NCBI RefSeq assembly: GCF_024355225.1
Contig: NZ_VCNH01000003.1
Location: 53,376-117,375, forward strand
From: Roseovarius sp. M141
Lineage (GTDB): Bacteria > Pseudomonadota > Alphaproteobacteria > Rhodobacterales > Rhodobacteraceae
Length of the DNA: 64,000 nucleotides
Reading direction: 5' to 3'
The notes beneath the pieces were generated by a model. The model searched no databases. It worked only from the letters and a program-made list of their open reading frames with translations, and was not told the DNA's origin. Numbering within the stretch: the stretch's first letter is position 1; each line of letters opens with the position of its first letter. Shown here piece after piece: positions 30,488 through 48,716 of this stretch. The position numbers and the translations under genes are program-made.

Positions 30488-31663
30488 ATGACCAATGTTG
30501 TAATCGTCTCTGCCGCGCGCACCGCTGTAGGCAGCTTCAACGGCTCTTTTGCCAACACGCCCGCCCATGACCTCGGCGCTGCGGTCATCGAAAGCGTGAT
30601 CAGCCGCGCCGGAATCGGCAAAGCGGATGTCTCCGAGACGATCCTCGGCCAGGTACTGACGGCCGGCCAAGGGCAGAACCCGGCCCGCCAAGCGCATATC
30701 AAGGCCGGGCTCCCGAAAGAGGCTAGCGCCTGGTCTCTGAATCAGGTTTGCGGCTCGGGCCTGCGCGCGGTCGCCCTTGGCGCACAGCATGTGCAACTCG
30801 GCGATGCCGCCATTGTCTTGGCCGGCGGGCAGGAAAGCATGTCGCTCTCGCCCCATGTGGCGCATCTGCGGGCCGGGCAGAAGATGGGCGACCTAAAGTT
30901 CATCGACTCGATGATCAAAGACGGTCTTTGGGATGCGTTCAACGGCTATCACATGGGCCAGACCGCCGAGAACGTCGCCGAGAAATGGCAGATCAGCCGC
31001 GAAGCACAGGACGAATTCGCCGTCGCCAGCCAGAACAAGGCCGAAGCCGCGCAGCAGGCCGGCAAGTTCAAGGACGAAATCGTGCCTTTCACGATCAAGA
31101 CCCGCAAGGGCGACATCGTGATGGACAGCGACGAGTATATCCGCCACGGCGCCACCATCGAATCGATGCAGAAGCTGCGCCCGGCTTTCACCAAGGACGG
31201 CTCGGTCACTGCCGCCAATGCGAGCGGATTGAATGACGGCGCCGCCGGAGTGCTGCTGATGTCCGCCGAGAACGCCGAGAAACGCGGCATCGAGCCCTTG
31301 GCCCGCATCGCCTCCTACGCCACGGTCGGACTGGACCCGTCGATCATGGGCGTGGGCCCGATCTACGCATCGCGCAAGGCGCTCGAGAAGGCTGGCTGGA
31401 AGGTCGAGGATCTGGATCTGGTCGAGGCCAACGAAGCCTTCGCCGCCCAGGCCTGTGCGGTCAACAAGGACATGGGCTGGGATGCGTCGATCGTGAACGT
31501 CAACGGCGGCGCTATCGCCATCGGCCACCCGATCGGCGCCTCCGGCGCGCGCGTCCTGAACACGCTGCTCTTCGAGATGAAACGCCGCGGAGCGAGAAAG
31601 GGCCTCGCGACGCTGTGCATCGGCGGGGGCATGGGCGTGGCCATGTGCTTGGAGCGCGACTGA
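30488..31663 (+). CDS. phaA: Acetyl-CoA C-acetyltransferase (beta-ketothiolase)
   Basis: 391 aa, the usual thiolase length. Condenses two acetyl-CoA to acetoacetyl-CoA. Active-site Cys88 in '[10 protein letters not shown]', His in '[15 protein letters not shown]' and Cys in '[12 protein letters not shown]' are all present, as is the '[11 protein letters not shown]' loop. RBS AGGAG. First gene of the run and 61 bp before phaB, so the product is meant for PHB synthesis. Confidence 0.95.
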
Positions 31664-31724
31664 CCTGAGAGTTTCCCCAACCCGGGCACAGCCTGCCGGG
31701 ACCAACTGACTTAGGAGACCTATC

Positions 31725-32447
31725 ATGGCACGAACTGCACTCGTCACCGGTGGATCGCGCGGCATCGGCGCGGCCATCTCGAAAGCTCTGCAAGCTGATG
31801 GCCACACCGTCGCCGCCACCTATGCCGGCAATGACGATGCCGCCGCTGCTTTCACAGCGGAGACCGGCATCAAGACCTACAAATGGAACGTGGCGGATTA
31901 CGCCGATTCCGCCGCCGGCATCGCCAAGGTAGAGGCCGACGTGGGCACGATCGACATCGTGGTCGCCAATGCCGGAATCACCCGCGACGCGCCGTTCCAC
32001 AAGATGACGCCCGAGCAGTGGCACCAGGTGATCGACACCAACCTGACGGGCGTGTTCAACACCGTCCACCCGGTCTGGCCGGGGATGCGTGAGCGCAAGT
32101 TCGGCCGGGTGATCGTTATCAGCTCGGTCAACGGCCAGAAAGGCCAGTTCGCGCAAGTGAACTATGCCGCGACCAAGGCCGGCGATATCGGCATCGTCCG
32201 TAGCCTGGCTCAGGAAGGCGCCCGCGCCGGCATCACCGCCAACGCCGTCTGCCCGGGCTATATCGCCACCGAGATGGTGATGGCGGTGCCCGAGAAGGTC
32301 CGCGAGAGCATCATCGCCCAAATCCCGGCCGGCCGGCTCGGTAAACCAGAGGAGATCGCCCGTTGCGTCGCGTTCCTGGCCTCCGACGATGCCCAGTTTA
32401 TCAACGGATCGACTATCTCCGCTAACGGCGCGCAGTTCTTTGGGTGA
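31725..32447 (+). CDS. phaB: Acetoacetyl-CoA reductase
   Basis: 240-aa short-chain dehydrogenase. Cofactor motif 'TGGSRGIGAAIS', 'NAGITRDAPFHKM' and catalytic Ser-Tyr-Lys in 'VISSVNGQKGQFAQVNYAATKAG'. The 'GQFGQxNYxAAKAG' context and length match PhaB, which reduces acetoacetyl-CoA to (R)-3-hydroxybutyryl-CoA with NADPH. A C-terminal 'GSTISANGAQFF' closes the fold. The transhydrogenase genes in the same run could supply its NADPH. Confidence 0.93.
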   Translation: MARTALVTGGSRGIGAAISKALQADGHTVAATYAGNDDAAAAFTAETGIKTYKWNVADYADSAAGIAKVEADVGTIDIVVANAGITRDAPFHKMTPEQWHQVIDTNLTGVFNTVHPVWPGMRERKFGRVIVISSVNGQKGQFAQVNYAATKAGDIGIVRSLAQEGARAGITANAVCPGYIATEMVMAVPEKVRESIIAQIPAGRLGKPEEIARCVAFLASDDAQFINGSTISANGAQFFG

Positions 32448-32459
32448 GGGCATTCTGAC

Positions 32460-35117
32460 ATGAGCGAACAAGAGCAAGACATCGACGCCACCGAAACGCT
32501 GGAATGGCAGGAAGCCATCGCCGACGTCATCGAGCGCGACGGGGCGAACCGTGCGTATTACCTGCTGGACAAGGCCGTCAACCAGGCGCGTGCCGCAGGG
32601 GCAAACCTGCCGTTTTCATCAACCACGCCCTACCAGAACACTATCCAGCCTGACGACCAGGAGGTCTATCCAGGCGATCTGGAGATGGAGTGGCGCATCC
32701 GCACCATCAACCGATGGAACGCGATGGCGACCGTCGTGCGCCGGAACAAGGTCTCCAGCGAGTATGGCGGGCATATCGCCTCCTACGCGTCCTCGGCGGT
32801 GATGTACGACATTGGGCTCAACCATTTCTGGCGCGCGAAGTCGGCGATCCACGGCGGCGATTTCGTGTTCTTCCAGGGTCACGTGATTCCCGGCATCTAC
32901 GCGCGGTCCTTCATGGAAGGCCGGATCGGCGAGGAGACGCTGGAGAACTTCCGCTCCGAGGTCGATGGCAAGGGCCTCTCCTCTTATCCGCACCCTTGGC
33001 TGATGCCGGATTACTGGCAGTTCCCGACCGTCTCGATGGGCCTCGGCCCCTTGATGGCGATCTACCAGGCGCGGTTCATGAAGTACCTGCACAATCGCGG
33101 CCTGATCGACATGGCCGACCGCAAGGTCTGGTGCTTCCTCGGCGACGGAGAGATGGACGAGCCGGAAAGCCTTGGCGCGATCAGCCTTGCGGCGCGGGAA
33201 AAGCTCGACAACCTCATTTTCGTGGTCAACTGCAACCTCCAGCGCCTCGACGGCCCGGTGCGCGGCAACGGCAAGATCGTGCAAGAGCTGGAGGGAGAGT
33301 TCCGCGGCGCCGGCTGGGAAGTCATCAAGCTTCTCTGGGGCAAGGGCTGGGACGAGCTTCTGGAGAAGGACACGACCGGGAGGCTCCGTCAGCTGATGGA
33401 CGAAACCGTGGACGGCGATTACCAGACCTTCAAGTCGAAGGACGGCGCCTATATCCGCGAGCATTTCTTCGGCAAGTATCCCGAAACCGCCGCACTGGTC
33501 GAAGACTGGTCCGACGATCAGATATGGGCACTCCGGCGCGGCGGACACGATCCCGAAAAAGTCTATACCGCCTTCAAGCGCGCGGCCGGGGTCGAGGGCC
33601 AGCCGACCTGCCTTCTCGTCAAGACCGTCAAGGGCTACGGCATGGGCAAGGCGGGTGAGGGCCAGAACATCACCCACCAGCAGAAGAAGATGGCGGAGGA
33701 TCAGCTCCGCGCCTTCCGCGACCGCTTCAAGATCCCGGTCAGTGACGAGGATTTGCCGAAGGCGCCCTTCGTCAAGCTGAACAACGCCCAGAAGGCCTAT
33801 CTCGCCGAACGGCGGCAGGCTTTGGGCGGCGAGTTCCCGAAACGCCATTGGCGCGACGTGCCGAAGCTTGAGATCCCGGCCCTGTCGGCGTTCGAGGCGC
33901 AGCTGAAAGGCACGGGCGACCGCGAAATCTCGACCACGATGGCATTCGTGCGGATCCTCACGACGCTTCTCCGCGATAAGAACATGGGCAAGAATGTCGT
34001 ACCCATCGTGCCGGACGAGAGCCGCACCTTCGGGATGGAGGGGCTTTTCCGCTCCGTCGGCATCTACAACCCCTTGGGCCAGCACTACACGCCCGAAGAT
34101 GCCGACCAGATGATGTATTACAAGGAAACAACCGACGGTCAGGTGCTTCAGGAAGGCATCAACGAAGCGGGCGCCATGGCCGACTGGATCGCGGCGGCGA
34201 CGTCCTATGCCAATCACGGCGTTCCGATGGTGCCGTTCTACATCTACTACTCGATGTTCGGTTTCCAGCGGATCGGCGATCTCGCCTGGGCAGCCGGCGA
34301 CAGCCGCGCGCGCGGCTTCATGCTGGGCGGCACCGCGGGGCGGACGACGCTCAACGGCGAGGGCTTGCAGCACGAGGACGGGCACAGCCACATCCTTGCC
34401 GGCACGATCCCGAACTGCATCACCTACGACCCGACCTTCCAGTACGAGGTCGCGGTGATCATCCATCACGGGTTGAAGCGGATGTATTCCGATCAGGACG
34501 ATGTCTATTTCTACCTGACCCTGATGAACGAGAACTACGCCCATCCCGACATGCCGCCCGGCGTGGAGGAGGGGATCATCAAGGGCCTCTACCGTCTGCA
34601 AAAGACCGCGAAGCCCGGCAAGAAGCACGTGAACCTCTTGGGGTCCGGCACGATCCTGATGCAGGCGCTGAAGGCCGCCGAGATGCTGAAGGCCGATTTC
34701 GGCGTGACCTCCGACATCTGGTCGGCCACCAGCCTCAACGAACTGGCGCGCGACGGGCAGGACGCGGCGCGGCACAACCGGCTCAATCCCCTCGCCGCCG
34801 AGCGGGTGCCTTATGTGACCGAGGCGCTGTCCTCCGCCAAGGGGCCGGTCATCGCGGCGACCGACTACATGAAGAACTACGCCGAGCAGATCCGCGCCTT
34901 CGTGCCGAACCGCTTCACGGTTCTCGGCACCGACGGGTTCGGGCGGTCCGACAGCCGGGTCAACCTGCGCCGCTTCTTCGAAGTGGATGCGAACCACATC
35001 GCGGCGGCGGCGATGGCCGATCTTTTCCGCGAAGGCGCGGTGACGGAGAAAGACCTGCAGGCAGCATTGAAGAAATACGACATCGATGGCGGCAAGCCGA
35101 ACCCCCGGCTGGTCTGA
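32460..35117 (+). CDS. aceE: Pyruvate dehydrogenase E1 component, homodimeric type
   Basis: 885 aa, full length for AceE. The thiamine-diphosphate motif 'CFLGDGEMDEPESLG ... NCNLQRLDGPVRGN' is present; the substrate histidines lie in 'HVIPGIYARSF' and 'EDGHSHI'. Decarboxylates pyruvate and passes the acetyl group to E2 lipoyl. Most alphaproteobacteria use the two-chain E1 (PdhA/PdhB) instead, so this AceE form points to acquisition from a beta/gammaproteobacterial-type source or a second, dedicated complex. Starts 12 bp after phaB. Confidence 0.96.
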   Translation: MSEQEQDIDATETLEWQEAIADVIERDGANRAYYLLDKAVNQARAAGANLPFSSTTPYQNTIQPDDQEVYPGDLEMEWRIRTINRWNAMATVVRRNKVSSEYGGHIASYASSAVMYDIGLNHFWRAKSAIHGGDFVFFQGHVIPGIYARSFMEGRIGEETLENFRSEVDGKGLSSYPHPWLMPDYWQFPTVSMGLGPLMAIYQARFMKYLHNRGLIDMADRKVWCFLGDGEMDEPESLGAISLAAREKLDNLIFVVNCNLQRLDGPVRGNGKIVQELEGEFRGAGWEVIKLLWGKGWDELLEKDTTGRLRQLMDETVDGDYQTFKSKDGAYIREHFFGKYPETAALVEDWSDDQIWALRRGGHDPEKVYTAFKRAAGVEGQPTCLLVKTVKGYGMGKAGEGQNITHQQKKMAEDQLRAFRDRFKIPVSDEDLPKAPFVKLNNAQKAYLAERRQALGGEFPKRHWRDVPKLEIPALSAFEAQLKGTGDREISTTMAFVRILTTLLRDKNMGKNVVPIVPDESRTFGMEGLFRSVGIYNPLGQHYTPEDADQMMYYKETTDGQVLQEGINEAGAMADWIAAATSYANHGVPMVPFYIYYSMFGFQRIGDLAWAAGDSRARGFMLGGTAGRTTLNGEGLQHEDGHSHILAGTIPNCITYDPTFQYEVAVIIHHGLKRMYSDQDDVYFYLTLMNENYAHPDMPPGVEEGIIKGLYRLQKTAKPGKKHVNLLGSGTILMQALKAAEMLKADFGVTSDIWSATSLNELARDGQDAARHNRLNPLAAERVPYVTEALSSAKGPVIAATDYMKNYAEQIRAFVPNRFTVLGTDGFGRSDSRVNLRRFFEVDANHIAAAAMADLFREGAVTEKDLQAALKKYDIDGGKPNPRLV

Positions 35118-35141
35118 TCGGGACGAAAGGAGACTAATCAC

Positions 35142-36413
35142 ATGGCAATTGAAGTCAAAGTGCCCGACATCGGGGATTTCAGCGACGTCCCGGTCATCAA
35201 CATCCTCGTTGGCGTCGGCGACGTCATCGGCAAGGAAGACCCGCTGGTCGAGCTGGAAAGCGACAAGGCGACGATGGAGGTTCCGTCCCCCGCCGCAGGC
35301 AAGGTCGCGGAGATCAAAGTCAAAGAGGGCGACAAGGTCTCGCAAGGTTCGCTGCTCCTCATGCTCGAAGGCGACGGCGCGGGTGATGCCCCGGCCAAGG
35401 AGGAGAAGAAGTCCGAAGCTCCGGCACCGGCCAGCACGCCATCGGACCCCGGCGCCCCGGTCGCCGCACCCGCTGCCGCCCCGGCCGCCGTCACTGATGC
35501 CGGTTTCGGCAAGGCCCATGCCTCGCCCTCGATCCGCGCCTTCGCGCGGCAATTGGGCATCGACCTCGCCATCATCAACGGCACCGGCCGGAAGGGTCGG
35601 ATCCTGCGCGAAGACGTGACCGCGGCCTTCAAGGGCTCGGGCGCGCCCGCCACCGGCGGCGCTGTCGGGGGCGGCATGGGTATCCCGCCGATCCCGCCTG
35701 TCGACTTCTCCAAGTTCGGCGAGGTCGAAGATGTCGAGATGCCGCGCATCAAGAAGCTCTCCGGCCCGGCGCTGCACCGCTCCTGGCTTAACATCCCGCA
35801 TGTCACCCATCAGGAAGAGGCGGACATCACCGAGTTGGACAAGTACCGCAAGGAACTTGATACCGACGCCAAGAAGGACGGCTACCGAGTCACGCTTTTG
35901 TCGTTCATCATCAAGGCCAGCGTCTCGGCCCTGAAGGAGCACTGGGAGTTCAACTCCTCGCTCCACCCCGACGGCGACAAGCTGATCCGCAAGCACTACT
36001 ACAATATCGGCTTTGCGGCGGACACGCCGAACGGGCTGATGGTGCCGGTGATCAAGGATGCCGACCGCAAGGGGATCGTGGCGATCTCGAAAGAGCTTGG
36101 TGACCTTTCCGCCGCGGCGCGTGACGGCAAGCTGAAAAGCCAGGACATGCAGGGCGCGACCTTCACTATTTCGTCCTTGGGTGGGATCGGCGGCACCGCC
36201 TTCACTCCCATCGTCAACGCACCCGAGGTGGCGATCCTCGGCCTGACACGCTCCAAGATGGCGCCGGTCTGGGATGGCGAGGCGTTTCAGCCCCGCAACA
36301 TACTGCCAATGTCGCTCAGCTACGACCACCGCGCCATCGACGGCGCGCTGGCCGCCCGCTTCGCCGCGACCCTGAAACACCTGCTCGGCGACGTGCGCCG
36401 GCTGATGCTGTAA
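35142..36413 (+). CDS. aceF: Pyruvate dehydrogenase E2 (dihydrolipoyl acetyltransferase)
   Basis: 423 aa. One N-terminal lipoyl domain with the lipoylated Lys in 'ESDKATMEVPSPAAG' (about residue 43), an Ala/Pro linker, the peripheral subunit-binding domain 'ASPSIRAFARQLGIDLAIINGTGRKGRILREDV', a second linker, then the catalytic core ending 'LSYDHRAIDGALAARF' (His and Asp of the HxxxD motif). Shorter than E. coli AceF, which has three lipoyl domains. 24 bp after aceE. Confidence 0.96.
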   Translation: MAIEVKVPDIGDFSDVPVINILVGVGDVIGKEDPLVELESDKATMEVPSPAAGKVAEIKVKEGDKVSQGSLLLMLEGDGAGDAPAKEEKKSEAPAPASTPSDPGAPVAAPAAAPAAVTDAGFGKAHASPSIRAFARQLGIDLAIINGTGRKGRILREDVTAAFKGSGAPATGGAVGGGMGIPPIPPVDFSKFGEVEDVEMPRIKKLSGPALHRSWLNIPHVTHQEEADITELDKYRKELDTDAKKDGYRVTLLSFIIKASVSALKEHWEFNSSLHPDGDKLIRKHYYNIGFAADTPNGLMVPVIKDADRKGIVAISKELGDLSAAARDGKLKSQDMQGATFTISSLGGIGGTAFTPIVNAPEVAILGLTRSKMAPVWDGEAFQPRNILPMSLSYDHRAIDGALAARFAATLKHLLGDVRRLML

Positions 36414-36425
36414 GGGGGCTGTAGG

Positions 36426-38168
36426 ATGGAAGTCAAAGTCCCCGATATCGGCGATTTCAAGGATGTTCCCGTCATCACCATCATGGTGAAGCCGGGTGAC
36501 ACCATCGCCAAGGAAGACCCGCTGATCGAACTGGAAAGCGACAAGGCGACGCTGGAAGTGCCGTCACCCGCCGCGGGCGTGGTGAAGGAGATCAAGGTCA
36601 AGACTGGCGACAAGGTCTCCGAAGGCTCCGCGATCCTCGTCCTCGAAGGTGCGGAGGTGGACGAGGCGCCGAAGGAAAGCGCGCCCGCAGCGCCCGCCAC
36701 CGAGGCGCCGAAATCCGTTGCCGCCACCGGCAGCGCCTCCGGCAAAGGCGATATCCACGGCGAAGTTGTTGTCCTCGGCTCCGGCCCCGGCGGCTACACG
36801 GCGGCCTTCCGCGCCGCCGATCTTGGCAAGAAGGTCGTGCTGATAGAGAAGGATTCCAATCTCGGCGGTGTCTGCCTCAACGTGGGGTGTATCCCGTCAA
36901 AGGCGCTTCTTCATGCCGCCAAGGTCATCACCGAGGCGGAAGAGATGGAGGATCACGGCCTCAAATTCGCCAAACCCAAAGTCGATCTGAAGAAACTCGT
37001 GGGCTGGAAATCATCCGTCGTCTCGAAGCTGACCGGCGGGCTTTCCGGTCTCGCCAAGGGCCGCAAGGTCGAGGTCGTGACCGGCATGGGCAAGTTCACC
37101 GGCCCCAACATGATCGAGGTCGAGGGCAAGGACGGCAAGAAAACCGTCAGCTTCGATCAATGCATCATCGCGGCGGGGTCGGAACCCGTCACGCTGCCGT
37201 TCATTCCGCATGACGACAAACGTGTGATTGATTCGACCGGTGCCCTGGAACTCGACGGCATTCCGAAGCGCCTCCTCGTCCTTGGCGGCGGTATCATCGG
37301 GCTGGAGATGGCCTGCGTCTATGACGCGCTCGGATCGAAGATCACGGTCGTCGAGCTGATGGACCAGATCATCCCAGGCGCGGACAAGGACATCGTCAAG
37401 CCGCTCCATAAGCGCATCGAGGGGCGCTACGAGAAGATCCTTCTCAAGACCAAGGTCACGGCGGTCGAGGCCCAGAAAGGCGGGCTGAAAGTCACCTTCG
37501 AGGACGACAAGGGCGAAACCTCCACCGACACGTTCGACAAGGTGCTCGTCGCCGTCGGTCGCCGCCCGAACGGCAAGACGATCGATGCCGAGGCGGCGGG
37601 CGTGGCGGTCGATGATCGGGGCTTCATCGCCGTGGACAGCCAGCAGCGCACCGGCCAGCACCACATCTTCGCCATCGGCGATGTGGTGGGCCAGCCGATG
37701 CTCGCCCACAAGGCGGTGCATGAGGGCAAGGTCGCGGCCGAGGTTTGCGCGGGCCAGAACCGCCATTTCGACGCCCGCGTGATCCCCTCGGTCGCCTATA
37801 CCGACCCCGAAGTGGCCTGGGTCGGTCTGACCGAAAATCAGGCGAAGGAGCGGGGCGTGAAGATCGGCAAGGGCGTCTTTCCGTGGGCCGCCTCCGGCCG
37901 CTCCCTGTCGCTCGGCCGCTCGGAGGGCATCACCAAGGTGATCTTCGATGAGTCCGACGACCGCGTCATCGGCGCGGGGATCGTCGGCCCGAATGCCGGC
38001 GATCTCATCGCCGAGGTGGCGCTGGCGATCGAGATGGGCGCGGACGCGGTCGATCTTGGCCACACGATCCACCCGCATCCGACGCTGTCGGAAACGGTGA
38101 ACTTCGCCGCCGAGATGTTCGAAGGCACGATCACCGACCTCATCCCGCCGAAGAAGCGAAAGACATGA
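36426..38168 (+). CDS. lpd: Dihydrolipoyl dehydrogenase with N-terminal lipoyl domain
   Basis: 580 aa, about 110 longer than plain Lpd. Residues 1-80 are a lipoyl domain ('ESDKATLEVPSPAAG') very close to that of aceF. The flavoprotein part follows: 'VVLGSGPGGYTAAFRAADLG', redox cysteines in 'GGVCLNVGCIPSKALLH', NAD site 'LVLGGGIIGLEMACVYDALG', FAD site 'HHIFAIGDVV', and the C-terminal His-Glu in 'HTIHPHPTLSETV'. Such PdhL proteins occur with AceE-type complexes in Cupriavidus-like bacteria. 12 bp after aceF. Confidence 0.95.
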   Translation: MEVKVPDIGDFKDVPVITIMVKPGDTIAKEDPLIELESDKATLEVPSPAAGVVKEIKVKTGDKVSEGSAILVLEGAEVDEAPKESAPAAPATEAPKSVAATGSASGKGDIHGEVVVLGSGPGGYTAAFRAADLGKKVVLIEKDSNLGGVCLNVGCIPSKALLHAAKVITEAEEMEDHGLKFAKPKVDLKKLVGWKSSVVSKLTGGLSGLAKGRKVEVVTGMGKFTGPNMIEVEGKDGKKTVSFDQCIIAAGSEPVTLPFIPHDDKRVIDSTGALELDGIPKRLLVLGGGIIGLEMACVYDALGSKITVVELMDQIIPGADKDIVKPLHKRIEGRYEKILLKTKVTAVEAQKGGLKVTFEDDKGETSTDTFDKVLVAVGRRPNGKTIDAEAAGVAVDDRGFIAVDSQQRTGQHHIFAIGDVVGQPMLAHKAVHEGKVAAEVCAGQNRHFDARVIPSVAYTDPEVAWVGLTENQAKERGVKIGKGVFPWAASGRSLSLGRSEGITKVIFDESDDRVIGAGIVGPNAGDLIAEVALAIEMGADAVDLGHTIHPHPTLSETVNFAAEMFEGTITDLIPPKKRKT

Positions 38169-38238
38169 GCAAACTCGTGAATGACATCGCGGGGCAACAA
38201 AGTGGCGCAACGGCGCCAGTCACCAAAGGAGATCAGCT

Positions 38239-38448
38239 ATGAGTGGTAGCGTTTACAAATACATTGAACTCGTGGGCACCAGCACCAAATCCTGGGAAGC
38301 CGCTGCCGTTGCAGCGGTAGAGCGCGCAAGCCAGACGCTGCGAGATCTGCGCGTCGCAGAAATCGTATCGCAAGACATGGTACTGGAGGACGGCAAAGTG
38401 AAGGCCTTTCGCTCCAAGGTCAGTGTCTCGTTCAAGTTTGAAGACTAG
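38239..38448 (+). CDS. Dodecin family flavin-binding protein
   Basis: 69 aa: 'YKYIELVGTSTKSWEAAAVAAVERASQTLRDLRVAEIV ... GKVKAFRSKVSVSFKFED' is the complete dodecin beta-alpha-beta-beta fold, which forms a hollow 12-mer storing flavin (or CoA/FMN) in the cytoplasm. RBS AAAGGAG. Its place between lpd and the phasin gene suggests it buffers flavin for the flavoenzymes of the run (Lpd, LutB partners). Confidence 0.93.
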   Translation: MSGSVYKYIELVGTSTKSWEAAAVAAVERASQTLRDLRVAEIVSQDMVLEDGKVKAFRSKVSVSFKFED

Positions 38449-38569
38449 ACCGATGTGGTGGGACTGCGATTCCACCAACTCTTCGCTGGCATTCCCGGTT
38501 GTGGCGAAACGTTTCATCAACTCCATGTGGCGCCGCCAATAGACTCAAGCTCCTGAAAGGATTCGTCCA

Positions 38570-39025
38570 ATGGCAAATAACCCCTTCGACCCGGCAGAAA
38601 TCTTCAAAGCCTTCAGTTCCGACGCAATGGCGAAGGTTTTCGATCCGACCGCGATGATGAACGTATTTCAGGATGCAGGCAAAAGCCTACCCGGCATGGC
38701 CGCCGTGATCGACGCCAACAAGCGTCACTTCGAGGCCACGGCCGAGGCTAACAAGGCTGCCGCCGCAAGCTACAAAGACATGCTCGAGAAACAGATGAAG
38801 ATTTTCAAGGAAGTGACCGAGCCGATTCAAAAGATGATGGCTGAAGCAACTGACCCGGCGACGATCAAGAATCAGACCAACGCCATGACCGATGCCGTTG
38901 AACAGGCTCTGGGTTTGATGCAGGGCATGGCTGAAGCGTCGCGCGTGGCTAACGAGAAAGCTTTCGAGGAAGCGAAGGACCAGGTTGCCAACGCTGTCAA
39001 AAAGGCCACCAAATCGGAGGCGTGA
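38570..39025 (+). CDS. phaP: Phasin (PHB granule-associated protein)
   Basis: 151 aa, almost wholly amphipathic helix: '[41 protein letters not shown]', with the 'NP-F' N-terminus '[15 protein letters not shown]' common in alphaproteobacterial phasins. C-terminal '[16 protein letters not shown]' is lysine-rich. Coats PHB granules and controls their size. Location in the run supports PHB as the end product. Confidence 0.85.
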
Positions 39026-39068
39026 CAGTTTTGTTCAGGGCATTTCAGAAATCGTCGAGGATCAAGAA

Positions 39069-40643
39069 ATGAGAATTGGAACACCGAAGGAAGTTCTCGA
39101 CGGCGAAGCGCGGGTCGCGATGACACCGGATAGTGCGGGGCAGCTTCGGAAACTGGGTTACGAGTGCCTGATTGAAACCGGCGCTGGCGCGAAAGCCGGG
39201 TTTTCGGACGTGGCTTTCGAGGAGGCAGGTGTAGAAGTCGTCAAGTCCGCCGCGGCGCTTTTCAAGGAGGCCGATATCGTTGCCAAGGTGCAGCCTCCGA
39301 CCGAGACCGAGGTCAAGCAACTCCGGAAAGGCCAGACGCTTGTCAGCTTCTTCTGGCCGGCTCAGAACGAGAAACTGCTGGAACTGGCGCGCGACGGGGG
39401 CGCCACCGTGATCGCAATGGACATGGTGCCGCGGATCAGCCGGGCCCAGAAGATGGACGCGTTGTCGTCGATGGCGAATATCGCTGGCTACCGCGCGGTG
39501 ATCGAGGCGGGCAACAACTTCGGCCGGTTCTTCACCGGCCAGGTGACAGCGGCGGGCAAGGTGCCGCCTGCAAAGGTCCTGATCGTCGGCGCCGGCGTCG
39601 CGGGACTGGCCGCGATCGGCACCTCGACCTCGCTCGGTGCCATCACCTACGCCTTCGACGTACGCCCCGAAGTCGCCGAGCAGATCGAGAGCATGGGCGC
39701 CGAATTCGTCTATCTCGATTTCGAGGAAAGCGGCCAAGACGGTTCCTCGACCGGGGGCTACGCGGCGCAGTCGAGCCCCGAGTTCCGCGAGAAGCAACTT
39801 GAGAAATTCCGCGAACTCGCCCCCGAGATGGACATCGTCATCACCACCGCGCTGATCCCGGGCCGGGACGCGCCGGTGCTCTGGACCAGGGACATGGTCG
39901 AGGCGATGAAGCCCGGTTCGGTGATCGTTGACCTCGCCGCCGAGCGCGGCGGCAACTGCGAACTGACCAAACCCGAGGAGAAGATCGTCACCGACAACGG
40001 CGTGACCATCGTCGGCTATACCGATTTCCCGAGCCGCATGGCGACGCAGTCCTCGACGCTCTACGCGACCAACGTCCGTCACATGATGACCGACCTCACG
40101 CCCGAGAAGGACGGGGTGGTCAACCACAACATGGACGACGACGTGATCCGGGGCGCGACCGTCGTGCATGAAGGCGAGATCACCTATCCGCCGCCGCCGC
40201 CGAAGGTAGCGGCGATCGCCGCCGCGCCTAAGAAGGAGAGGCCGAGGGAGCTGACGGTCGAGGAGAAGCGGGCGCAGGAACTCGCGGCCTTCAAGGCACA
40301 GACCAAGAGCCAGGTGACGCTCCTCGCCGTGGGCGGCGGGCTGATCCTGCTCGCGGGGTTCTACACGCCGGCCTCGTTCATGCAGCACTTCATCGTGTTC
40401 GTTCTATCCGTGTTCGTGGGCTTCCAGGTGATCTGGAACGTCTCGCACAGCCTGCACACGCCGCTGATGGCGATCACCAACGCGATCTCATCGATCATCA
40501 TCCTCGGCGCGCTGATGCAGATCGGATCGGGCTCGTTCCTGGTGATCGCACTGGCGGTACTCAGCGTCTTCATGGCCGGGATCAACATCTTCGGCGGCTT
40601 CCTCGTCACCCGGCGCATGCTCGCCATGTTCCAGAAATCCTGA
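39069..40643 (+). CDS. pntA: NAD(P) transhydrogenase subunit alpha
   Basis: 524 aa from the ATG at 39069, behind GAGGATCAAG. The N-terminal NAD(H)-binding domain I includes '[22 protein letters not shown]', and '[10 protein letters not shown]' follows. C-terminal residues 400-524 carry about four membrane helices. This is the single-chain alpha form (as in E. coli), not the split PntAA/PntAB found in several alphaproteobacteria. With PntB it uses the proton gradient to move hydride from NADH to NADP+. Confidence 0.96.
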
Positions 40644-40656
40644 AGGAGGCCGGGCA

Positions 40657-42144
40657 ATGGAAATCGGATTCACCACTGCCGCCTACGTGGTTGCGGCTAT
40701 CCTCTTCATCCTGTCGCTCGGCGGGCTCTCTGGTCAGGAAAGTGCCAAGCGTGCGGTTTGGTACGGCATCGTCGGCATGGGCCTGGCGGTCATGGCGACG
40801 CTGATTGGGCCGGGCTCGGGGCTCTGGCTTCTGTCGCTACTGCTGATTGCGGGTGGTGCTGTGATCGGCGTCTATGTGGCCAAGCGCGTACAGATGACTG
40901 AGATGCCGCAGCTGGTGGCGGCGATGCACAGCCTCGTGGGCCTCGCCGCGGTCTTCGTGGGATTCAACGCCCACATCGAGATCGGGCGCGTGGCGGCGGC
41001 CTTCGCCGAGGCCGGTGCGGGCTTCCCGCTGCCCAATGACGGCTCGGGCCACACGCCTAAGGCGATCGCCGAGATGTTCCGCGGCTTCGCCGCCGTGGTC
41101 TCACACAAGACCGGCGCGGAGATCAGCATCCTTCGTATCGAGCTTTTCCTCGGGGTCTTCATCGGTGCGATCACCTTCACCGGCTCGGTCGTGGCCTTCG
41201 GCAAGTTGGCGGGCAAGACGACCTCGGCCGCAACCAAGCTGCCAGGTGGGCACGTTCTCAACCTGGCGACGGCGATCATCTCGGTGATCTGCCTGATCTG
41301 GTACTTCTCGACGGGCGGCTTCTTCCCGCTCCTTCTGATGACGCTGGCCGCGCTCTTCATCGGCTATCACCTGATCATGGGCATTGGCGGGGCCGACATG
41401 CCGGTCGTGGTTTCGATGCTGAACAGCTACTCGGGCTGGGCGGCGGCGGCGATCGGCTTCTCGCTCGGCAATGACCTTTTGATCGTCGTGGGCGCGCTGG
41501 TGGGCTCGTCGGGTGCAATCCTCAGCTACATCATGTGCAAGGCGATGAACCGGCATTTCGTCAGCGTCATTCTCGGCGGCTTCGGGGGCGCTCAGGGCCC
41601 GGCAGCCGAAATCGAAGGTGAACAGGTTGCGATCGAAGCCGAAGGTGTAGCAGCGGCGCTCGAGGAGGCCGACAGCGTGATCATCATCCCCGGCTACGGA
41701 ATGGCGGTGGCCCAGGCTCAGCATGCGGTGAGCGAACTTGCCCGCAAGCTGCGCACCAAGGGCAAGAACGTGCGTTTCGCCATCCATCCGGTTGCCGGGC
41801 GCCTGCCAGGGCACATGAACGTGCTCTTGGCCGAGGCTAAGGTGCCCTACGACATCGTCTTGGAGATGGACGAGATCAACGACGATTTCCCGGACACAGG
41901 CGTGGCCATCGTCATCGGATCGAACGACATTGTGAACCCGGCTGCGCAGGACGATCCCAATAGCCCCATCGCCGGCATGCCGGTGCTGGAATGCTGGAAA
42001 GCCAAGCAGGTCTTCGTCTCAAAGCGAGGCCAAGGAACCGGCTATTCCGGCGTCGAGAACCCACTGTTTTACAAGGAGAACACCCGCATGTTTTACGGCG
42101 ACGCGAAGGTGAGCCTCGACAAGCTCCTGACGATGATCGGGTAA
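40657..42144 (+). CDS. pntB: NAD(P) transhydrogenase subunit beta
   Basis: 495 aa. N-terminal two-fifths contain eight to nine membrane helices ('[21 protein letters not shown]', '[21 protein letters not shown]', with the proton-channel His), then the NADP(H)-binding domain III: '[22 protein letters not shown]', '[21 protein letters not shown]', '[18 protein letters not shown]', '[21 protein letters not shown]'. Complete. Makes NADPH, the cofactor of PhaB, out of NADH produced by pyruvate dehydrogenase. Confidence 0.97.
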
Positions 42145-42251
42145 GTGGCCCGGACCGTTGCGCGCCACGGACAACGAAAATTCGCTGCAATAACAGCCTA
42201 TTCATCGAAACACGGCAGCGCGGTGTCGCCCCGCTGCATTGAGGAGGAAAG

Positions 42252-44021
42252 ATGTCCCAGCTATTCACATTCATATTGGCCTTGCTGCCAATCGCCACAG
42301 TGTTCATGCTATTGGTGGTTCTGGCGCGCTCTGCCAAGCTTTCGATGGGCGTGGCCTATCTTGTCACCGCCGCGACCGCGCTTTTGGTCTGGGGCACCGA
42401 TGTCAACAAGGTACTCGGAGCCACAGTCAATGGGGGCGTGACGGCAATCAGCCTACTTTACATCATCTTCGGCGCGATCCTGCTTCTCTACACGCTAGAG
42501 GAGAGTGGGGGCATCCGCTCAATACGAGCAGGATTCACAAGCATCTCTCCCGATCGGCGTGTGCAGGCGATAATCATCGCCTGGCTTTTCGGGTCGCTGA
42601 TCGAGGGAGCTTCCGGATTTGGAACACCGGCGGCGATCGCCGCGCCGCTTCTGGTGGCGATCGGTTTTCCGGCCATGGCCGCAGTTCTGGTCGCCCTGAT
42701 CATCCAGAGTACACCGGTCTCTTTTGGAGCAGTAGGCACACCGATTCTCGTGGGCGTCAACACCGGGCTCTCAGGACAGGCATCGGTCGAGGCCGCTATC
42801 GCGCCCTTGCCCTTCACCGAGTATCTCATGGAAATTGCCACTCGCGTGGCTATGATCCACGGGCTTATCGGGTTCCTGATACCCCTGATCCTGGTGGGAA
42901 TGTTGACGCGCTTCTTTGGTGTTAACAGGTCTTTCCGCGAAGGGTTCCGGATCTGGAAGTTCGCCCTCTTTGCAGGGTTGGCCTTCACCGTTCCCTACTA
43001 TGCCATCGCTGCGCTTCTTGGCCCCGAATTTCCGTCGCTGGTGGGCGGCATCATCGGATTGCTGATCGTCGTACCCGCAGCACAGCGCGGGTTTCTTATC
43101 CCGACCGAGACTTTCGAGTTCCCGCCGCGTGCGGCGTGGGAGCCGAGTTGGGTCGGCAAGCTTGACGATCTTGAGGATCACCGGGCCGGTCAGAAAATGA
43201 TGCCGCTGCTGAAGGCCTGGGCGCCCTATGTGTTCGTCGTGGCGCTGTTGGTCGTCACCCGCACCGTGGCGCCAGTCAAGGAATGGCTGACCTCACCAGA
43301 AATGACGCTGGCCTTTTCTGACCTGTTTGGTTCGGGTATCACGGCGCGAGTGCAGGTCGCCTATCTGCCCGGAACCGTGCTGATCCTTGCCTCTGTCTTC
43401 ACCTTCTTCCTACACGGCATGAAGCTGCGGGACTACGTAACCGCACTGAAATCATCTGGATCGACGATGATCGCCGCCGCTCCGGCGCTGCTGCTGGCCG
43501 TGCCGATGGTGCAAGTTTTCCTGAACTCGGCCTCGGACAGCATGGCCAGCATGCCGATCGTTCTGGCCGAGGGCGTCTCGGCGGCGGCGGGTGAGGCTTG
43601 GCCGATGTTTGCACCGCTGATCGGCGCGATGGGCGCCTTCGTGGCCGGCTCGAACACAATCTCGAACATGATGTTCTCGCTCTTCCAGTTCTCGACAGCT
43701 GAACAGATCGGGCTTGGCGCCGCTGGTGCCGGAACCGTCGTCGCCTTGCAGGCCATCGGCGGGGCCGCGGGAAACATGATCTGCGTACACAATGTGGTTG
43801 CGGCATCCGCAACCGTTGGCCTTGTCGACCGCGAAGGCGAACTCATCCGGAAAACTCTGATCCCGATGTTCTATTACATTGTGCAAGGGGGTTTCATCGG
43901 TTTCGCACTCCTCGCGGGAAGCCTCAGCCTTTGGTGGATCGCGGCATTGATCTGGCCCGCGGTTGTGCTCATCTTGATGGCACGCAATCGCGGAAGCGTT
44001 CCCGCCATCTCGCGAAACTGA
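42252..44021 (+). CDS. lldP: L-lactate permease (LctP/LldP family)
   Basis: 589 aa, RBS GAGGAGG. Twelve or more hydrophobic segments and the family pattern '[26 protein letters not shown]', '[16 protein letters not shown]', '[22 protein letters not shown]', '[24 protein letters not shown]'. Inner-membrane symporter for lactate (also glycolate) with protons. Directly followed by lutABC, which fixes lactate as the likely substrate. Confidence 0.95.
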
Positions 44022-44028
44022 GGTCGCC

Positions 44029-44796
44029 ATGTCCGAACAGCCACCCCCCCATGTCGGTCTTTTCGTGACCTGTATTGTAGACGCCATCCGACCCTGCATC
44101 GGTTTCTCCGCCCTGCAACTGCTGGAAGAGGCCGGCTGCAGAGTGGAGGTTCCAGAGGCGCAGACATGTTGCGGACAACCCGCCCTGAACAGCGGGGACG
44201 AAAAGGATGCAGCAGCACTGGCGCGACAGACCATCGCTGCTTTCGAGGGCTTCGACTATGTTGTCCTGCCCTCGGGATCCTGCGCGGGAACCATCGTGCA
44301 CGGCTATCCGGACCTGTTGGCCAACGATCCGGTCTGGGCGCCCCGCGCCCGGACCCTCGCCGCGAGAACCCACGAGATCACCAGTTTCCTAGTTGATGTG
44401 ATGGGTTTTCGGCCAAAAGGCCGTCGCCTGTCAGCGACGGCCACCTACCACGACAGTTGCGCAGGGCTGCGCGAACTGGGCATCGCCGCGCAACCCCGTG
44501 CGCTTCTGGCGGAAGTCGAGGGCCTGGAGATGCGGGGACTGGAAGGCAATGATGTCTGCTGCGGCTTTGGCGGCACGTTCTGCGTCAAGTATTCCGACAT
44601 CTCGAACGCCATCGTCACCGAAAAGGCCGAGGCGATCGAGCGCACCGAGGCCGACCTGCTTCTGGCGGGAGATCTGGGATGCCTGATGAACATGGCAGGC
44701 AAGCTGAACCGCCGGGGCGCAAGGACGCGCTGTTTCCACACCATCGAGGTTCTGGCGGGCCGGGCCGACGGTCCCGCCATCGGCGAGGAGGGCTGA
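44029..44796 (+). CDS. lutA: L-lactate dehydrogenase complex protein LutA/LldE
   Basis: 255 aa. Two cysteine-rich CCG-type domains: 'TCCGQPALNSGD' with 'PSGSCAG', and 'YHDSCAGLREL' with 'DVCCGFGGTFCVKYSDIS', as in LutA/GlpC-type iron-sulfur subunits that take electrons towards quinone. 7 bp after lldP and 5 bp before lutB. Confidence 0.94.
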   Translation: MSEQPPPHVGLFVTCIVDAIRPCIGFSALQLLEEAGCRVEVPEAQTCCGQPALNSGDEKDAAALARQTIAAFEGFDYVVLPSGSCAGTIVHGYPDLLANDPVWAPRARTLAARTHEITSFLVDVMGFRPKGRRLSATATYHDSCAGLRELGIAAQPRALLAEVEGLEMRGLEGNDVCCGFGGTFCVKYSDISNAIVTEKAEAIERTEADLLLAGDLGCLMNMAGKLNRRGARTRCFHTIEVLAGRADGPAIGEEG

Positions 44797-44801
44797 GAAT
44801 C

Positions 44802-46235
44802 ATGAGCGCACCAGAGGCAACTGTGCAGGTTTCGTTCAAGAACCGTGCCAAGACGGCACTGGCGGACCGGACGCTGAAGATCGCCATCGACCGCACCACC
44901 GGCACGGCCGAGGCCAAGCGCGCGGTTGCGGTGGCGGCGTTTCCCGAATTCCAGGCCGCCCGCGCCCGCGGACGCGCGATCAAGGATCACGTGATCGCCC
45001 ATCTGGACCATTATCTTGAACAGTTCGAGCGCAACGCCACCGCATCCGGTGCGACGGTCCACTGGGCATCCGACGATGCCGAGGCGCGGGCGATCATCAC
45101 CCGCATCTGCCTGGATGCCAAGGCCAAGCTGGTGACGCGGTCGAAATCCATGCTGGGCGAGGAAATCGGTCTGCCGCATGCCTTGGCCGATGCCGGGATC
45201 GAGCGGGTCGAGACCGACCTGGCCGAACACATCATCCAGCTTGCCGGAGAGGCCCCCTCCCACATCGTCTGGCCCGCGATGCACCGCACCCGCGAACAGG
45301 TGGCGGAGCTGTTCAAGATAGCTCATCACCCGCCGCCCGCCGCCGACGATCCGGCCACCATGGTGCAAAGCGCGCGGCGCGAATTGCGCGCCAAGTTTCT
45401 GGGGGCCGACATCGGCATTTCGGGGTCGAATTTCCTGGTGGCCGATACGGGTGCCACCTGCACGGTGACGAATGAAGGCAATGCCGAACTGACTACCACG
45501 CCGCCGCGCATTCATATCGTGACGGCGGGGATCGAGAAGATCGTGCCGACCACCGCCCATGCCCTGTCCCTGCTGCGCCTGCTGGTGCGGTCGGCCACGG
45601 GCGGCGAACTGACGCAATACACCACCTTCCACTGCGGACCCAAACGTCCTGGCGACGCCGATGGTCCCGAGGAGATGCACATCGTGCTGGTGGATAACGG
45701 TCGCACCAGGATGCTGGACAACGAGTTCCGCGAGATGCTGCGCTGCATCCGCTGTGGTGCCTGCATGAACCATTGCGTGGTCTATCGCCAGATCGGCGGG
45801 CACGCCTATGGCGGCACCTATCCCGGACCGATGGGTTCGGTTCTGACGCCGGTGCTGAACGGGCTGGCCGGATCGCGCGACCTGCCCAATGCCTGCACCA
45901 TGAACGGCCGCTGCGCCGAAGTCTGCCCGGTTGAGATTCCCATCCCCACGCTGCTGCGCGCCTGGCGGATCCGCAGTTGGCGAGAAAGGCTGGAACCGGG
46001 AAGCCTTCGCGTCGGTATCGGTATCTGGGCCGTTCTGGCCCGGCGGCCCGGTCTTTACCGGCTAGCCAGCCGGATCGGCGTGCGCGCCCTCCGGTTGTTC
46101 GGCAAGGGGGGCTGGATCGCGCGCCTGCCGCTGGCGGGCGGCTGGACGGCCCATCGCGACCTGCCGCGCCCGGCGGGCCGCACCTTCATGGACCAGTATC
46201 GCGCCCAGCAGGCACATAAGGAGGACCGCCCATGA
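44802..46235 (+). CDS. lutB: L-lactate dehydrogenase complex iron-sulfur protein LutB/LldF
   Basis: 477 aa from the ATG at 44802. N-terminal LUD-type domain ('SKSMLGEEIGLPHALADAGIERVETDLAEHIIQL', 'ADIGISGSNFLVADTGATCTVTNEGN'), then two 4Fe-4S motifs: 'CIRCGACMNHC' and 'CTMNGRCAEVCP'. C-terminal helices end in 'TFMDQYRAQQ'. Core of the flavin-independent L-lactate oxidase LutABC, which makes pyruvate. Overlaps lutC by 4 bp. Confidence 0.95.
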   Translation: MSAPEATVQVSFKNRAKTALADRTLKIAIDRTTGTAEAKRAVAVAAFPEFQAARARGRAIKDHVIAHLDHYLEQFERNATASGATVHWASDDAEARAIITRICLDAKAKLVTRSKSMLGEEIGLPHALADAGIERVETDLAEHIIQLAGEAPSHIVWPAMHRTREQVAELFKIAHHPPPAADDPATMVQSARRELRAKFLGADIGISGSNFLVADTGATCTVTNEGNAELTTTPPRIHIVTAGIEKIVPTTAHALSLLRLLVRSATGGELTQYTTFHCGPKRPGDADGPEEMHIVLVDNGRTRMLDNEFREMLRCIRCGACMNHCVVYRQIGGHAYGGTYPGPMGSVLTPVLNGLAGSRDLPNACTMNGRCAEVCPVEIPIPTLLRAWRIRSWRERLEPGSLRVGIGIWAVLARRPGLYRLASRIGVRALRLFGKGGWIARLPLAGGWTAHRDLPRPAGRTFMDQYRAQQAHKEDRP

Positions 46236-46879
46236 CCGCCCGCGACCGCATCCTGTCGGCGATCCGCGCCGCCCTGCCCCAGGAACGCCCGCCGCCCGAC
46301 GTCATCGCCGCCGAGGCCAAGGCCCTGCTGGCCGATCCCGACACCAGCCGCCCCCGGCTGGTCGCCGAGGGGCTGGTCGATGCCTTCATCCTGAAGGCTG
46401 AGGCGATCAGCACGACCATCGACCAGGTTGGCCGCATGGAAGCCGTTCCCGACGCCGTGCGGCGCTATCTGTTGGGACACGGCCTGACCCTTTCCCTGGC
46501 CCTAGAACCGACGCCTGCGCTGACCGCGCTTGACTGGACGGGTCTAGACACCGGTACCATCCTTGCGCCGGACCAGCCGGCAGCGCTCGGAATGGCGCTT
46601 TGGGGCATCGCCGAAAGCGGGTCCATGATCGTGCATTCGGGCTCCGATACGCCGATCCTGCTGTCTTTCCTGCCCCTGCATCACATCGTGGTGCTGCGGG
46701 AATCCGATGTCCTGTCCCATCTCGAGGACTATGCTGCGCGGTTGGCCGAGCGGCCTCATCCGCGCAACGCGATCCTGATCACCGGACCCAGCGGCACGAC
46801 CGATATCGAAGGGAGCTATGTGCGCGGGGCGCATGGGCCGGGCTTCCTGCATGTGATCCTTGTTTCAAGCTCAGATTGA
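46232..46879 (+). CDS. lutC: L-lactate dehydrogenase complex protein LutC/LldG
   Basis: 215 aa, LUD domain only. Typical N-terminal 'RDRILSAIRAAL', and the core 'GMALWGIAESGSMIVHSGSDTPILLSFLPLHHIVVLRESDVLSHLEDY' with 'ITGPSGTTDIEGSYVRGAHGP' at the end. The third subunit of the lactate-oxidising complex. ATG overlaps the lutB stop. Confidence 0.94.
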   Translation: MTARDRILSAIRAALPQERPPPDVIAAEAKALLADPDTSRPRLVAEGLVDAFILKAEAISTTIDQVGRMEAVPDAVRRYLLGHGLTLSLALEPTPALTALDWTGLDTGTILAPDQPAALGMALWGIAESGSMIVHSGSDTPILLSFLPLHHIVVLRESDVLSHLEDYAARLAERPHPRNAILITGPSGTTDIEGSYVRGAHGPGFLHVILVSSSD

Positions 46880-46962
46880 CAACCTACCGGTTGCCAATGC
46901 CCACCGCCGCCGACCTTTGCCAGCAGAGCCCGTCGCTCTATCTACCCCCAAGGAGAACCGGA

Positions 46963-48716
46963 ATGGACCAAAGCGAGATTGCCGAACAGACCGCGGAATT
47001 TGCCAGCCTGATGCAGCGGGCGCAGGGGCTGGCGCAGCGCAGCAGCGCCAGTGCCCTGGCCAAAGCCACGGGGCGCGACTTCACGGTGCTGGATTCCGGA
47101 ACGGTGGCGCAGGCTTATGCTCGCGCGGGGATGAAGCTGGCGCAGAACCCGTTTGCGCTGGCGCAGTTCCAGGTGGATCTCTGGGCCGACAGCGCCAAGG
47201 CCTGGGCCGGGGCTTGGGTGGGCGAGGGCCACGACAGCAAGGACCGACGCTTTCGGGACGGGCGCTGGAACAGCAACCCGGTCAGCCGGGGCCTGCGCGA
47301 CGTGCATCTGGCCATCGAAGGCGCCGCCGACCGGCTGATCGAGACCCTGCCCGACGGCGACAAGGACAGCCTGCGGGTGCGCTTCTATACCCGCCAACTG
47401 CTGAGCGCTCTGTCGCCCAGCAACTATCTGGCGCTGAACCCGGTACCGCGCGAGAGCGGTTCCTGGAAACCGATGGCCGCAGCCTGCTGGACGGGTTCCG
47501 CAACCTGCTGGATGATCTTGAGCGCGGCGAGGGACGGCTGGACATCAACATGACCGACCGCGCCGCCTTCGAGGTCGGGCGCGACCTGGCCACCACGCCG
47601 GGGCAGGTGATCTATCAGAACGAGCTGATCCAGCTCATTCACTACGAGCCGCTGACCAAGACCCAGTTCAAGCGGCCGCTGCTGTTCGTGCCGCCTTGGA
47701 TCAACAAGTATTACATCTTCGACATGAAGCCCGACAACAGTCTGGTCCGCTATATGCTGGAACAGGGGCACAGCGTCTTTCTGATCTCATGGGTCAATCC
47801 GACCAAGAAACATGCCGCGCTGAGCTTCGAGGATTACATGCGGCTTGGCCCGCTGGCCGCGCTGGAAGCGATCACCCAAGCGACGGGCGAGGACGAATTC
47901 GACATTCTCGGCTTCTGCATCGGCGGCATTCTGGTCACTGCGACGCTGGCCTATATGGCGGCCAAGGGCGACAAGCGGGTCAAGACAGCCACGACCCTGG
48001 CCACCATGGTGGATTTCACCGATGTGGGCGAGATCGGCGTCTTTATCGACCGCGACCGGCTGAAGGTACTGCGCGAACATATGGCCGAAAAGGGCCATCT
48101 GGAAAATCACCACCTGCAGGACATGTTCTCGATGATCCGGGAAAATGACCTGATCTGGTCTTTCCACGTGATGAACTATCTGATGGGCCGCAAGCCACCG
48201 GCCTTCGATCTGCTGTTCTGGAACGGCGACAGCACCCGCCTGCCTGCCGCGATGCTGCTGTGGTATCTGGAGAAGATCTATATCGAGAACGGGCTGCGCC
48301 AGCCCGGTCATCTGACCATGGACGGTGTGCCCATCGATATCGGCAAGATCGACATTCCCTTCTATGTCTTTGCCACGAAAGAGGATCATATCGCGCCCTG
48401 GAACTCGATCTATCCGACGACCGGGTTGCTGGGCGGTGACACGACCTTCGTTCTGGGCGGCTCGGGCCATATCGCGGGGGTGATCAACCCGCCCGCCAAG
48501 CGACCGAAATACGGTTACTGGACGTGCGCAGACTATCCAGAGCAACCGTTGGAATGGCTGGCAGGGGCCGAACATCAGGAGGGTTCGTGGTGGGCGCACT
48601 GGCTGGCCTGGATAGACAGCCAGTCCGACACCGAACAGGTGTCCGCCTATGTGCCGGGCAAGGGCAAACTTAAGCCGATCGAACCCGCCCCCGGCAGCTA
48701 TGTTCGCGCGGACTGA
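46963..48716 (+). pseudogene. phaC: Class I PHB synthase, frameshifted
   Basis: The start ATG at 46963 has AAGGAG. Residues 1-164 ('AQFQVDLWADSAKAWAGAWVG', 'DRRFRDGRWNSNP') are in one frame. From about 47,456 the match continues in another frame ('ERFLETDGRSLLDGFRNLLDDLERG'). A 2-bp excess in the GAGAG at 47452-47456 explains the shift. The downstream part is complete: 'LLFVPPWINKYYIFDM', lipase-like box 'GFCIGGIL' with the catalytic Cys, 'FWNGDSTRLPAAM', 'GSGHIAGVINPPA'. Total length would be about 584 aa, normal for class I. Polymerises hydroxybutyryl-CoA; last gene of the run. Confidence 0.88.

Follow-up and report, generated by a model that had tools for sequence, protein, structure and literature searches.

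The stretch analysed here, which we call the window, covers the right-hand 64 kb of a 117,375-bp contig (C3) in the 4.5-Mb, nine-contig genome of Roseovarius sp. M141, and it carries at 30488-48716 a run of 14 genes that could together specify a route from L-lactate to polyhydroxybutyrate (PHB) around a pyruvate dehydrogenase (PDH) operon. The contig is very probably a repABC plasmid, since it encodes RepC (PF03428), an adjoining RepA-type ATPase, a DotH/IcmK protein, and a TrbI-like protein that scores below cut-off. The gene in the RepB position, between repA and repC, had no Pfam match, and no terminal overlap of the contig was found when one was sought. Families were assigned with NCBIfam and Pfam models and their curated cut-offs, and the genes of the run are as follows.

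30488..31663, plus strand: phaA, acetyl-CoA acetyltransferase (TIGR01930, 470 bits, cut-off 240.55; Cys, GHP, and CIGGG motifs)
31725..32447, plus strand: phaB, acetoacetyl-CoA reductase (TIGR01829, 337 bits, cut-off 302.1)
32460..35117, plus strand: aceE, homodimeric pyruvate dehydrogenase E1 (TIGR00759, 1440 bits, cut-off 859.9)
35142..36413, plus strand: aceF, E2 acetyltransferase with one lipoyl domain (TIGR01348, 567 bits, cut-off 552.1; ESDKA and DHRAIDG motifs)
36426..38168, plus strand: lpd, E3 with an N-terminal lipoyl domain (TIGR01350, 521 bits, cut-off 408.8)
38239..38448, plus strand: dodecin (Pfam Dodecin, 83 bits)
38570..39025, plus strand: phasin-like granule protein (Phasin_2, E 0.0018, below cut-off)
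39069..40643, plus strand: pntA, transhydrogenase alpha (NF006942, 818 bits, cut-off 383)
40657..42144, plus strand: pntB, transhydrogenase beta (NF006974, 661 bits, below the cut-off of 689)
42252..44021, plus strand: lldP, L-lactate permease family (TIGR00795, 349 bits, cut-off 341.15; PF02652)
44029..44796, plus strand: lutA (PF02754, two stretches)
44802..46235, plus strand: lutB, iron-sulfur subunit (TIGR00273, 433 bits, below the cut-off of 444.8; two Cys motifs)
46232..46879, plus strand: lutC, LUD-domain protein (PF02589, 71 bits, cut-off 22.6)
46963..48716, plus strand: phaC, class I polyhydroxyalkanoate synthase in two frames that change near 47450 (GxCxGG, DHI, and GH motifs in the second part)

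The positions and families given for these fourteen genes by an initial annotation of the sequence were confirmed, with three models and the phasin below cut-off. AceE, AceF, Lpd, PntA, the LctP-type permease, and PhaB pass their NCBIfam models, the dodecin, LUD, CCG, and PhaC_N domains pass in Pfam, and PhaA passes only the general thiolase model TIGR01930. The three that fall short are PntB (660.6 against 689), LutB (432.8 against 444.8), and class I PhaC (586.6 against 622.65). For the phasin-like protein, whose own match is weak, PF09361 is present in four of nine homologues (57-65% identical). A motif check of eleven products, the regulator included, found every pattern except one for phaB and one for lutA, both of them ill-written; TGxxxGxG is plainly present in the phaB translation, and LutB has both iron-sulfur Cys motifs, CIRCGACMNHC and CTMNGRCAEVCP. 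The lipoyl stretch of lpd is a repeat of that of aceF (77% over 177 nt). Adjacent lutA, lutB, and lutC with an LctP-type permease give the gene content of a lactate utilisation operon, and phaA, phaB, and a class I phaC give that of a PHB set, class I being the best PhaC model, with a score lowered by an N-terminus in another frame.

Intergenic distances within the run, taken from the coordinates, are -4 to +121 bases. The G+C content at third codon positions is 0.81-0.86 from phaA to lpd and in pntAB, 0.64 in dodecin, 0.70 in the phasin gene, 0.73 in lldP and lutA, and 0.79-0.85 from lutB to phaC, and thus varies along the run without a single clean step. This difference among genes, together with the 70-121 bases that precede each of dodecin, phasin, lldP, and phaC, speaks for an alternative in which the plasmid is a storehouse of separate operons (phaAB-PDH, pntAB, lldP-lutABC, and phaC), brought together by repeated insertion and regulated apart. 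We regard such a history as rather unlikely, as the same order is found in Paracoccus genome G343 and others, which would be unexpected from random accretion.

The order recurs in relatives, among them on two complete plasmids, Paracoccus zhejiangensis pPZ03 and P. tegillarcae pBM151, on which a divergent FadR gene is followed by phaA, phaB, aceE, aceF, lpd, a phasin-sized protein, lldP, lutA, lutB, lutC, and phaC. Architectures drawn from tblastn add P. lutimaris (L028), P. aurantiacus (L037), and the genomes G405 (L188), G314 (L191), and G343 (L186, L187), so that phaA and phaB open the run and phaC closes it in seven Paracoccus genomes. Recurrence of this order in other species puts the arrangement beyond chance. 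The initial annotation had named an order confined to this assembly as a ground for refutation, and that ground did not hold. Misassembly as the source of the gene order was rejected, since pPZ03 and pBM151 have that order. In a sample of 125 Paracoccus genomes (lutB at E up to 1e-60, aceE at E up to 1e-200), lutB was found in 40 and aceE in 26, with 19 of the latter at least 85% identical to the window's and seven at 52-58%; in 15 of the 19, lutB is on the strand and contig of aceE, 8.4-12.0 kb downstream of it. The other four are G404, G386, and G377, in which aceE and lutB are on different contigs (the aceE contig being 4,580 bp in G404 and 77 kb in G377), and G380, a genome 71% complete in which lutB had no match.

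Membership of the cluster varies. The pntA and pntB genes of G343 (L186) are at the same position as in the window, G303 (L184) has both and lacks phaB and phaC, and among the module loci examined only these two and the window combine pntAB with lut genes. Dodecin had no match in 212 loci, not all of which cover the spot (tblastn, E up to 1, with the window's own copy as positive control). The module can be chromosomal, since G405 carries it on a 3.63-Mb contig. P. yeei pTT13-3 and locus L009 have aceEF-lpd-lldP-lutABC with no pha gene in the run, as does the part of P. sanguinis pPspOM44 that is seen, from aceF onward. Such loci favour an alternative in which the cluster serves lactate catabolism for growth, with PDH feeding the tricarboxylic acid cycle and the PHB genes as passengers or a minor overflow valve. 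We consider this unlikely, as the retention of phaA/phaB and phaC at opposite ends in seven Paracoccus genomes argues for kept function.

From these comparisons it is fairly probable that the run is a plasmid-borne, modular lactate-to-acetyl-CoA-to-PHB cluster around a PDH operon, which evolves by exchange of pieces. LutABC oxidises L-lactate, PDH yields acetyl-CoA and NADH, PhaA, PhaB, and PhaC make PHB, and PntAB produces NADPH by drawing on the proton-motive force. In the cluster, LldP would import L-lactate and LutABC would oxidise it to pyruvate, which AceE, AceF, and the lipoyl-bearing Lpd would convert to acetyl-CoA with formation of NADH. PhaA and PhaB would then lead to 3-hydroxybutyryl-CoA, to be polymerised by PhaC on a granule coated by the phasin. 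PntAB may turn NADH into NADPH for a putative NADPH use by PhaB, and dodecin may buffer flavin. As its group holds PdhR, LldR, and GlcC, the regulator may sense pyruvate, lactate, or glycolate. An importer and oxidase (TRAP with Dld, or LldP with LutABC), phaAB, pntAB, and phaC would each be gained or lost around aceE-aceF-lpd. This reading builds on the observed gene content, order, recurrence, mosaic structure, and deletion scar, and would entail a single transcript, its induction, and carbon flow into PHB; the presence of PntAB suggests that the cluster could also balance NADH and NADPH.

Exchange of pieces is evident in the DNA identity to pPZ03, which is 76-82% from phaA to lldP (75-82% when pBM151 is included), and rises to 92% in lutA, 97% in lutB, 93% in lutC, and 87% in phaC. 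In 100-bp bins the step falls at about 44150-44200, inside lutA, and it is seen against P. lutimaris as well. The aceE tree leaves the window outside a 14-row Paracoccus group (support 100/100), and it groups with Rhodobacteraceae in the phaA tree (with L023, 98/96) and the phaB tree (with L061 and L023, 100/99). In the lutB tree the window belongs with Paracoccus plasmid copies in a group of six rows (100/99, although the bootstrap had not settled), and the lldP and phaC trees do not place it. Inheritance of the run in one piece with Paracoccus was therefore rejected, since aceE, phaA, and phaB are placed differently from lutB. Blocks placed differently are also consistent with the storehouse of separate operons described above. 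We read the mosaic as probable homologous recombination between two versions of the module. G314 shows a comparable event: its lutB is 88% identical to the window's against 96-98% in the sister modules, from which its lutA (94%) and lutC (89%) do not stand apart. This lutB is a different allele and marks a second local swap. The identity step inside lutA, together with a genome contamination given as 3.02%, could also point to an assembly artefact joining two plasmids. That explanation is highly improbable, as the step falls at a homologous place inside a gene, the whole order stands on complete plasmids of other species, and the local swap in G314 lutB is comparable.

Upstream of the run lie the regulator gene and, between it and phaA, two gene remnants, as follows.

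28941..29861, minus strand: FadR-subfamily GntR regulator (GlcC/PdhR/LldR group), 306 amino acids from GTG, with an ATG at 29780 (Pfam GntR and FCD)
30165..30269, plus strand: dctP remnant (TRAP substrate-binding protein), 35 amino acids, internal stop, 69-71% identity to relatives (tblastn of L055, L011, and L014 neighbours against the gap; family by NCBIfam on L055)
30285..30467, plus strand: remnant of the 3' end of dld (D-lactate dehydrogenase), about 61 amino acids, internal stop, 46-52% identity (tblastn; family by NCBIfam on L055 and L011)

The initial annotation placed a FadR-type GntR regulator divergently at the head of the run. It is divergent from phaA, and instead of standing directly at the head it lies 626 bases away, with pseudogene scraps between. 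The regulator has scores with the NCBIfam models for GlcC (164.7 bits), PdhR (163.8), and LldR (162.0), all below cut-off, the PdhR equivalog requiring 330 bits. The 35 DctP-like residues correspond to residues 169-203 of the L011 and L014 proteins, and the residues resembling the C-terminus of D-lactate dehydrogenase follow in the same frame, with stops present. Marivita (L011, L014) has dctP, dctQM, and dld intact, in the interval from FadR to aceE. In L055, a metagenome-assembled genome titled Geminicoccaceae, the same intact genes stand between FadR and phaA, followed by phaB, aceEF, lpd, and lutABC. Roseomonas ponticola (L056) has FadR, an LctP-like permease, dld, aceEF, lpd, and lutABC. 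The window's FadR is closer to those of L055, Marivita, and L056 (49-55%) than to that of the Paracoccus module (42-48%). Because the scraps in the gap stand intact in these relatives, an older lactate operon at the locus is indicated; the ancestor of the run was probably a lactate operon that used a different importer and oxidase, and LldP-LutABC now carries the lactate function. Among 60 loci surveyed (L003-L062, all alphaproteobacterial by title, counted without correction for contig ends, and with the alphaproteobacterial loci L064 and L066 outside the count), dld immediately precedes aceE, or in L055 phaAB-aceE, in six (L011, L014, L015, L033, L055, and L056), and a D-lactate-PDH linkage is thus present in several alphaproteobacterial lineages. 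No other independent evidence speaks as strongly as this dctP-dld ancestry for lactate and PDH genes forming a set at this locus. A match to the C-terminal part of D-lactate dehydrogenase was also seen on P. yeei pTT13-3, in L085:18510-18923, annotated there as a hypothetical protein.

Several observations weigh against an integrated lactate-to-PHB cluster, the first of which concerns its distribution. In a family sample of 295 genomes, nearly one per genus (E up to 1e-60 for lutB and 1e-200 for aceE), aceE was found in 50, lutB in 19, and both in seven, and the two share a contig in only two of the seven, the window's genome and G023 (Paracoccus), so that the linkage is rare outside Paracoccus. 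A class sample of 385 genomes (lutB at E up to 1e-100, aceE at E up to 1e-250) gave lutB in 160 and aceE in 11; among the matches listed, only the window's genome has a same-contig pair, and G468 has both genes, the place of its lutB lying outside those matches. In the 60-locus survey, lutB is downstream of aceE in nine, phaA or phaB upstream in ten, and pntB present in three, and PDH without lut or pha partners is the common state; L064 has phaA, phaB, and pntB near aceE. With respect to regulation, diverged Paracoccus lineages share a conserved 46-bp stretch ahead of phaA (the pattern, drawn from these same sequences, matches eight locus records from six genomes, L189 and L190 resembling L028 and L037, and misses L084 by a base or two). 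It was not found in the window, and is absent from the FadR-phaA gap even with up to 16 substitutions allowed. Because this Paracoccus footprint was not found, the regulation of the window's run may have changed. A scan for sigma-70-like promoters gave two against a shuffle mean of 3.7, and is thus without excess. Terminators likewise showed no excess (nine against 14.9 in shuffles), an Rfam scan of 20000-52000 had no match, and no canonical PdhR or LldR box lies between FadR and phaA. The palindrome GGTnnnACC, used for the PdhR-type site (PMC7660256), occurs four times in 28900-49100, each time within lpd or lutB and never between FadR and phaA.

The last of these adverse points is phaC, which the initial annotation had counted as one open gene. 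An intact homologue aligns with the window in two different frames, residues 1-164 at 46963-47454 and residues 162-583 at 47448-48710, so the reading frame is not intact in the window, while the homologues on pPZ03 and pBM151 are. A TTG start of phaC at 46860 is an artefact of open reading frame calling, ruled out by this two-frame alignment. As a gene set of conserved order, the lactate-to-PHB route proposed at the outset therefore stands, its final step in the window is frame-shifted, and overall the proposal is supported in part. The frameshift also counts for the growth alternative. Sequencing error is a possible cause, because a chromosomal phaC homologue in the same assembly (G000:C8:3643614-3644849) is likewise in several pieces, through assembly frame errors or as a pseudogene. 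With the window's own phaC frame-shifted, the last PHB step here may depend on chromosomal PhaC. Contig C8, which is chromosome sized, has phaC homologues of 39 and 41% besides the one in pieces, another aceE (87%) as part of a plain aceE-aceF-lpd set, a pntB paralogue (76%), and phaA homologues of 84, 53, and 38%. No second lutB was found there, and the plasmid set therefore adds at least LutABC as new, together with a second set of the later steps (no search was made for a second lldP). A CoA-transferase probe of the genome gave two matches elsewhere, with no bearing on the cluster.

Comparison with known systems places each part of the cluster on familiar ground. The E. coli pdhR-aceEF-lpd operon also has a FadR-subfamily GntR regulator beside aceE-aceF-lpd; it differs in that the regulator gene is in the same operon and the lactate genes form a separate operon, lldPRD, using LldD. 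To our knowledge, E. coli has no PHB genes. Operons of the lldP-lutABC type have permease and LutABC in the order of the window, with versions including FadR and dld in L122, L198, and L199, whose runs lack all the PDH, pnt, and pha genes used as queries. In L198 (G404), phaC is convergent to FadR-dld-lldP-lutABC. PHB operons of the phaAB or phaCAB type share thiolase, reductase, synthase, and phasin, whereas the window splits the pha genes to both ends of the PDH-lactate run. The clusters of pPZ03 and pBM151 match the window in order from FadR to phaC; they are without dodecin and pntAB, and their regulator is only 42-43% identical. Shared control has a precedent in E. coli, where PdhR represses aceEF-lpd and, judged by mRNA level, lldPRD, whose mRNA is up 3.3-fold in a pdhR mutant (PMC7660256). 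GlcR of P. denitrificans, which is of the FadR subfamily like the window's regulator, clusters with the GlcC, PdhR, and LldR clades and has glycolate oxidase genes as its target, which it represses (PMC11323563). A precedent for the mechanism is Comamonas, in which aceE mutants show less lactate and pyruvate toxicity to worms, which the authors tie to PHB, an lldP mutant shows less pyruvate toxicity, and both genes are placed upstream of PHB polymerisation (PMC13108865). The literature searched (titles and abstract openings, with preprints and most subscription journals outside it) held no description of the lactate-PDH-PHB combination. Each part is already known, and the combination is a recurring, exchangeable cluster.

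Whether the cluster moves as one unit was considered from two insertion sequences that flank it.

20892..21702, minus strand: IS6-family element, identical to 49045-49855, inverted (sequence match)
49045..49855, plus strand: IS6-family element (NF033587, 224.6 bits, cut-off 125)

The two 811-bp elements are identical and enclose 21703-49044, and no further full-length match occurs in the genome. An IS6 pseudo-compound transposon has its elements in direct orientation with 8-bp target duplications; here the bracketing copies are present, they are inverted rather than direct, and no 8-bp duplication was seen when the flanks were compared by eye. Of the mobile carbon-storage module originally proposed, movement of parts between lineages holds, given the plasmids, the chromosome-sized contig, and the trees, and mobility of the module as one unit is conceivable from the bracketing copies. 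An IS6 transposase is beside phaC on pBM151 as well. The bracketed segment also holds an IS66 transposase and, at 21744-25614, an NADH-dehydrogenase-like gene with a cyclic-nucleotide-binding domain, then cydA and cydB, and these respiratory genes would also suit a lactate cluster for growth. On pPZ03, cbb3 oxidase genes are upstream of FadR, and terminal-oxidase genes are thus near the module on both.

A bolder proposal, which we put forward tentatively and hold as possible rather than probable, is that of a single mobile regulon comprising the whole pathway from import to granule with its NADPH supply, by which a plasmid would convert its host's fermentation lactate to polymer, and which would have been rebuilt repeatedly around PDH by swapping lactate-entry modules (TRAP-Dld for LldP-LutABC). 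Genes for carbon storage and the catabolic genes that supply them are usually considered separately. If genes for lactate uptake, PDH, and PHB form a cluster that is both conserved and exchangeable, this would show that storage can travel as a trait tied to one substrate, and nature would already have assembled a cassette for producing PHB from waste rich in lactate. The lineages compared, with TRAP-Dld or LldP-LutABC and with pha and pnt present or absent, allow the evolution of such a pathway operon to be followed directly.

Elsewhere in the window, the IS6 transposase to the right of the run is followed by a regulator of the Crp/Fnr family (49096-50967 in all), nearest to FnrL although below cut-off. 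A Strawberry-notch-type helicase (AAA_34, Helicase_C_4) is found at 13519-16578, and an AAA_27 ATPase adjoins a metallophosphoesterase at 58577-63156.

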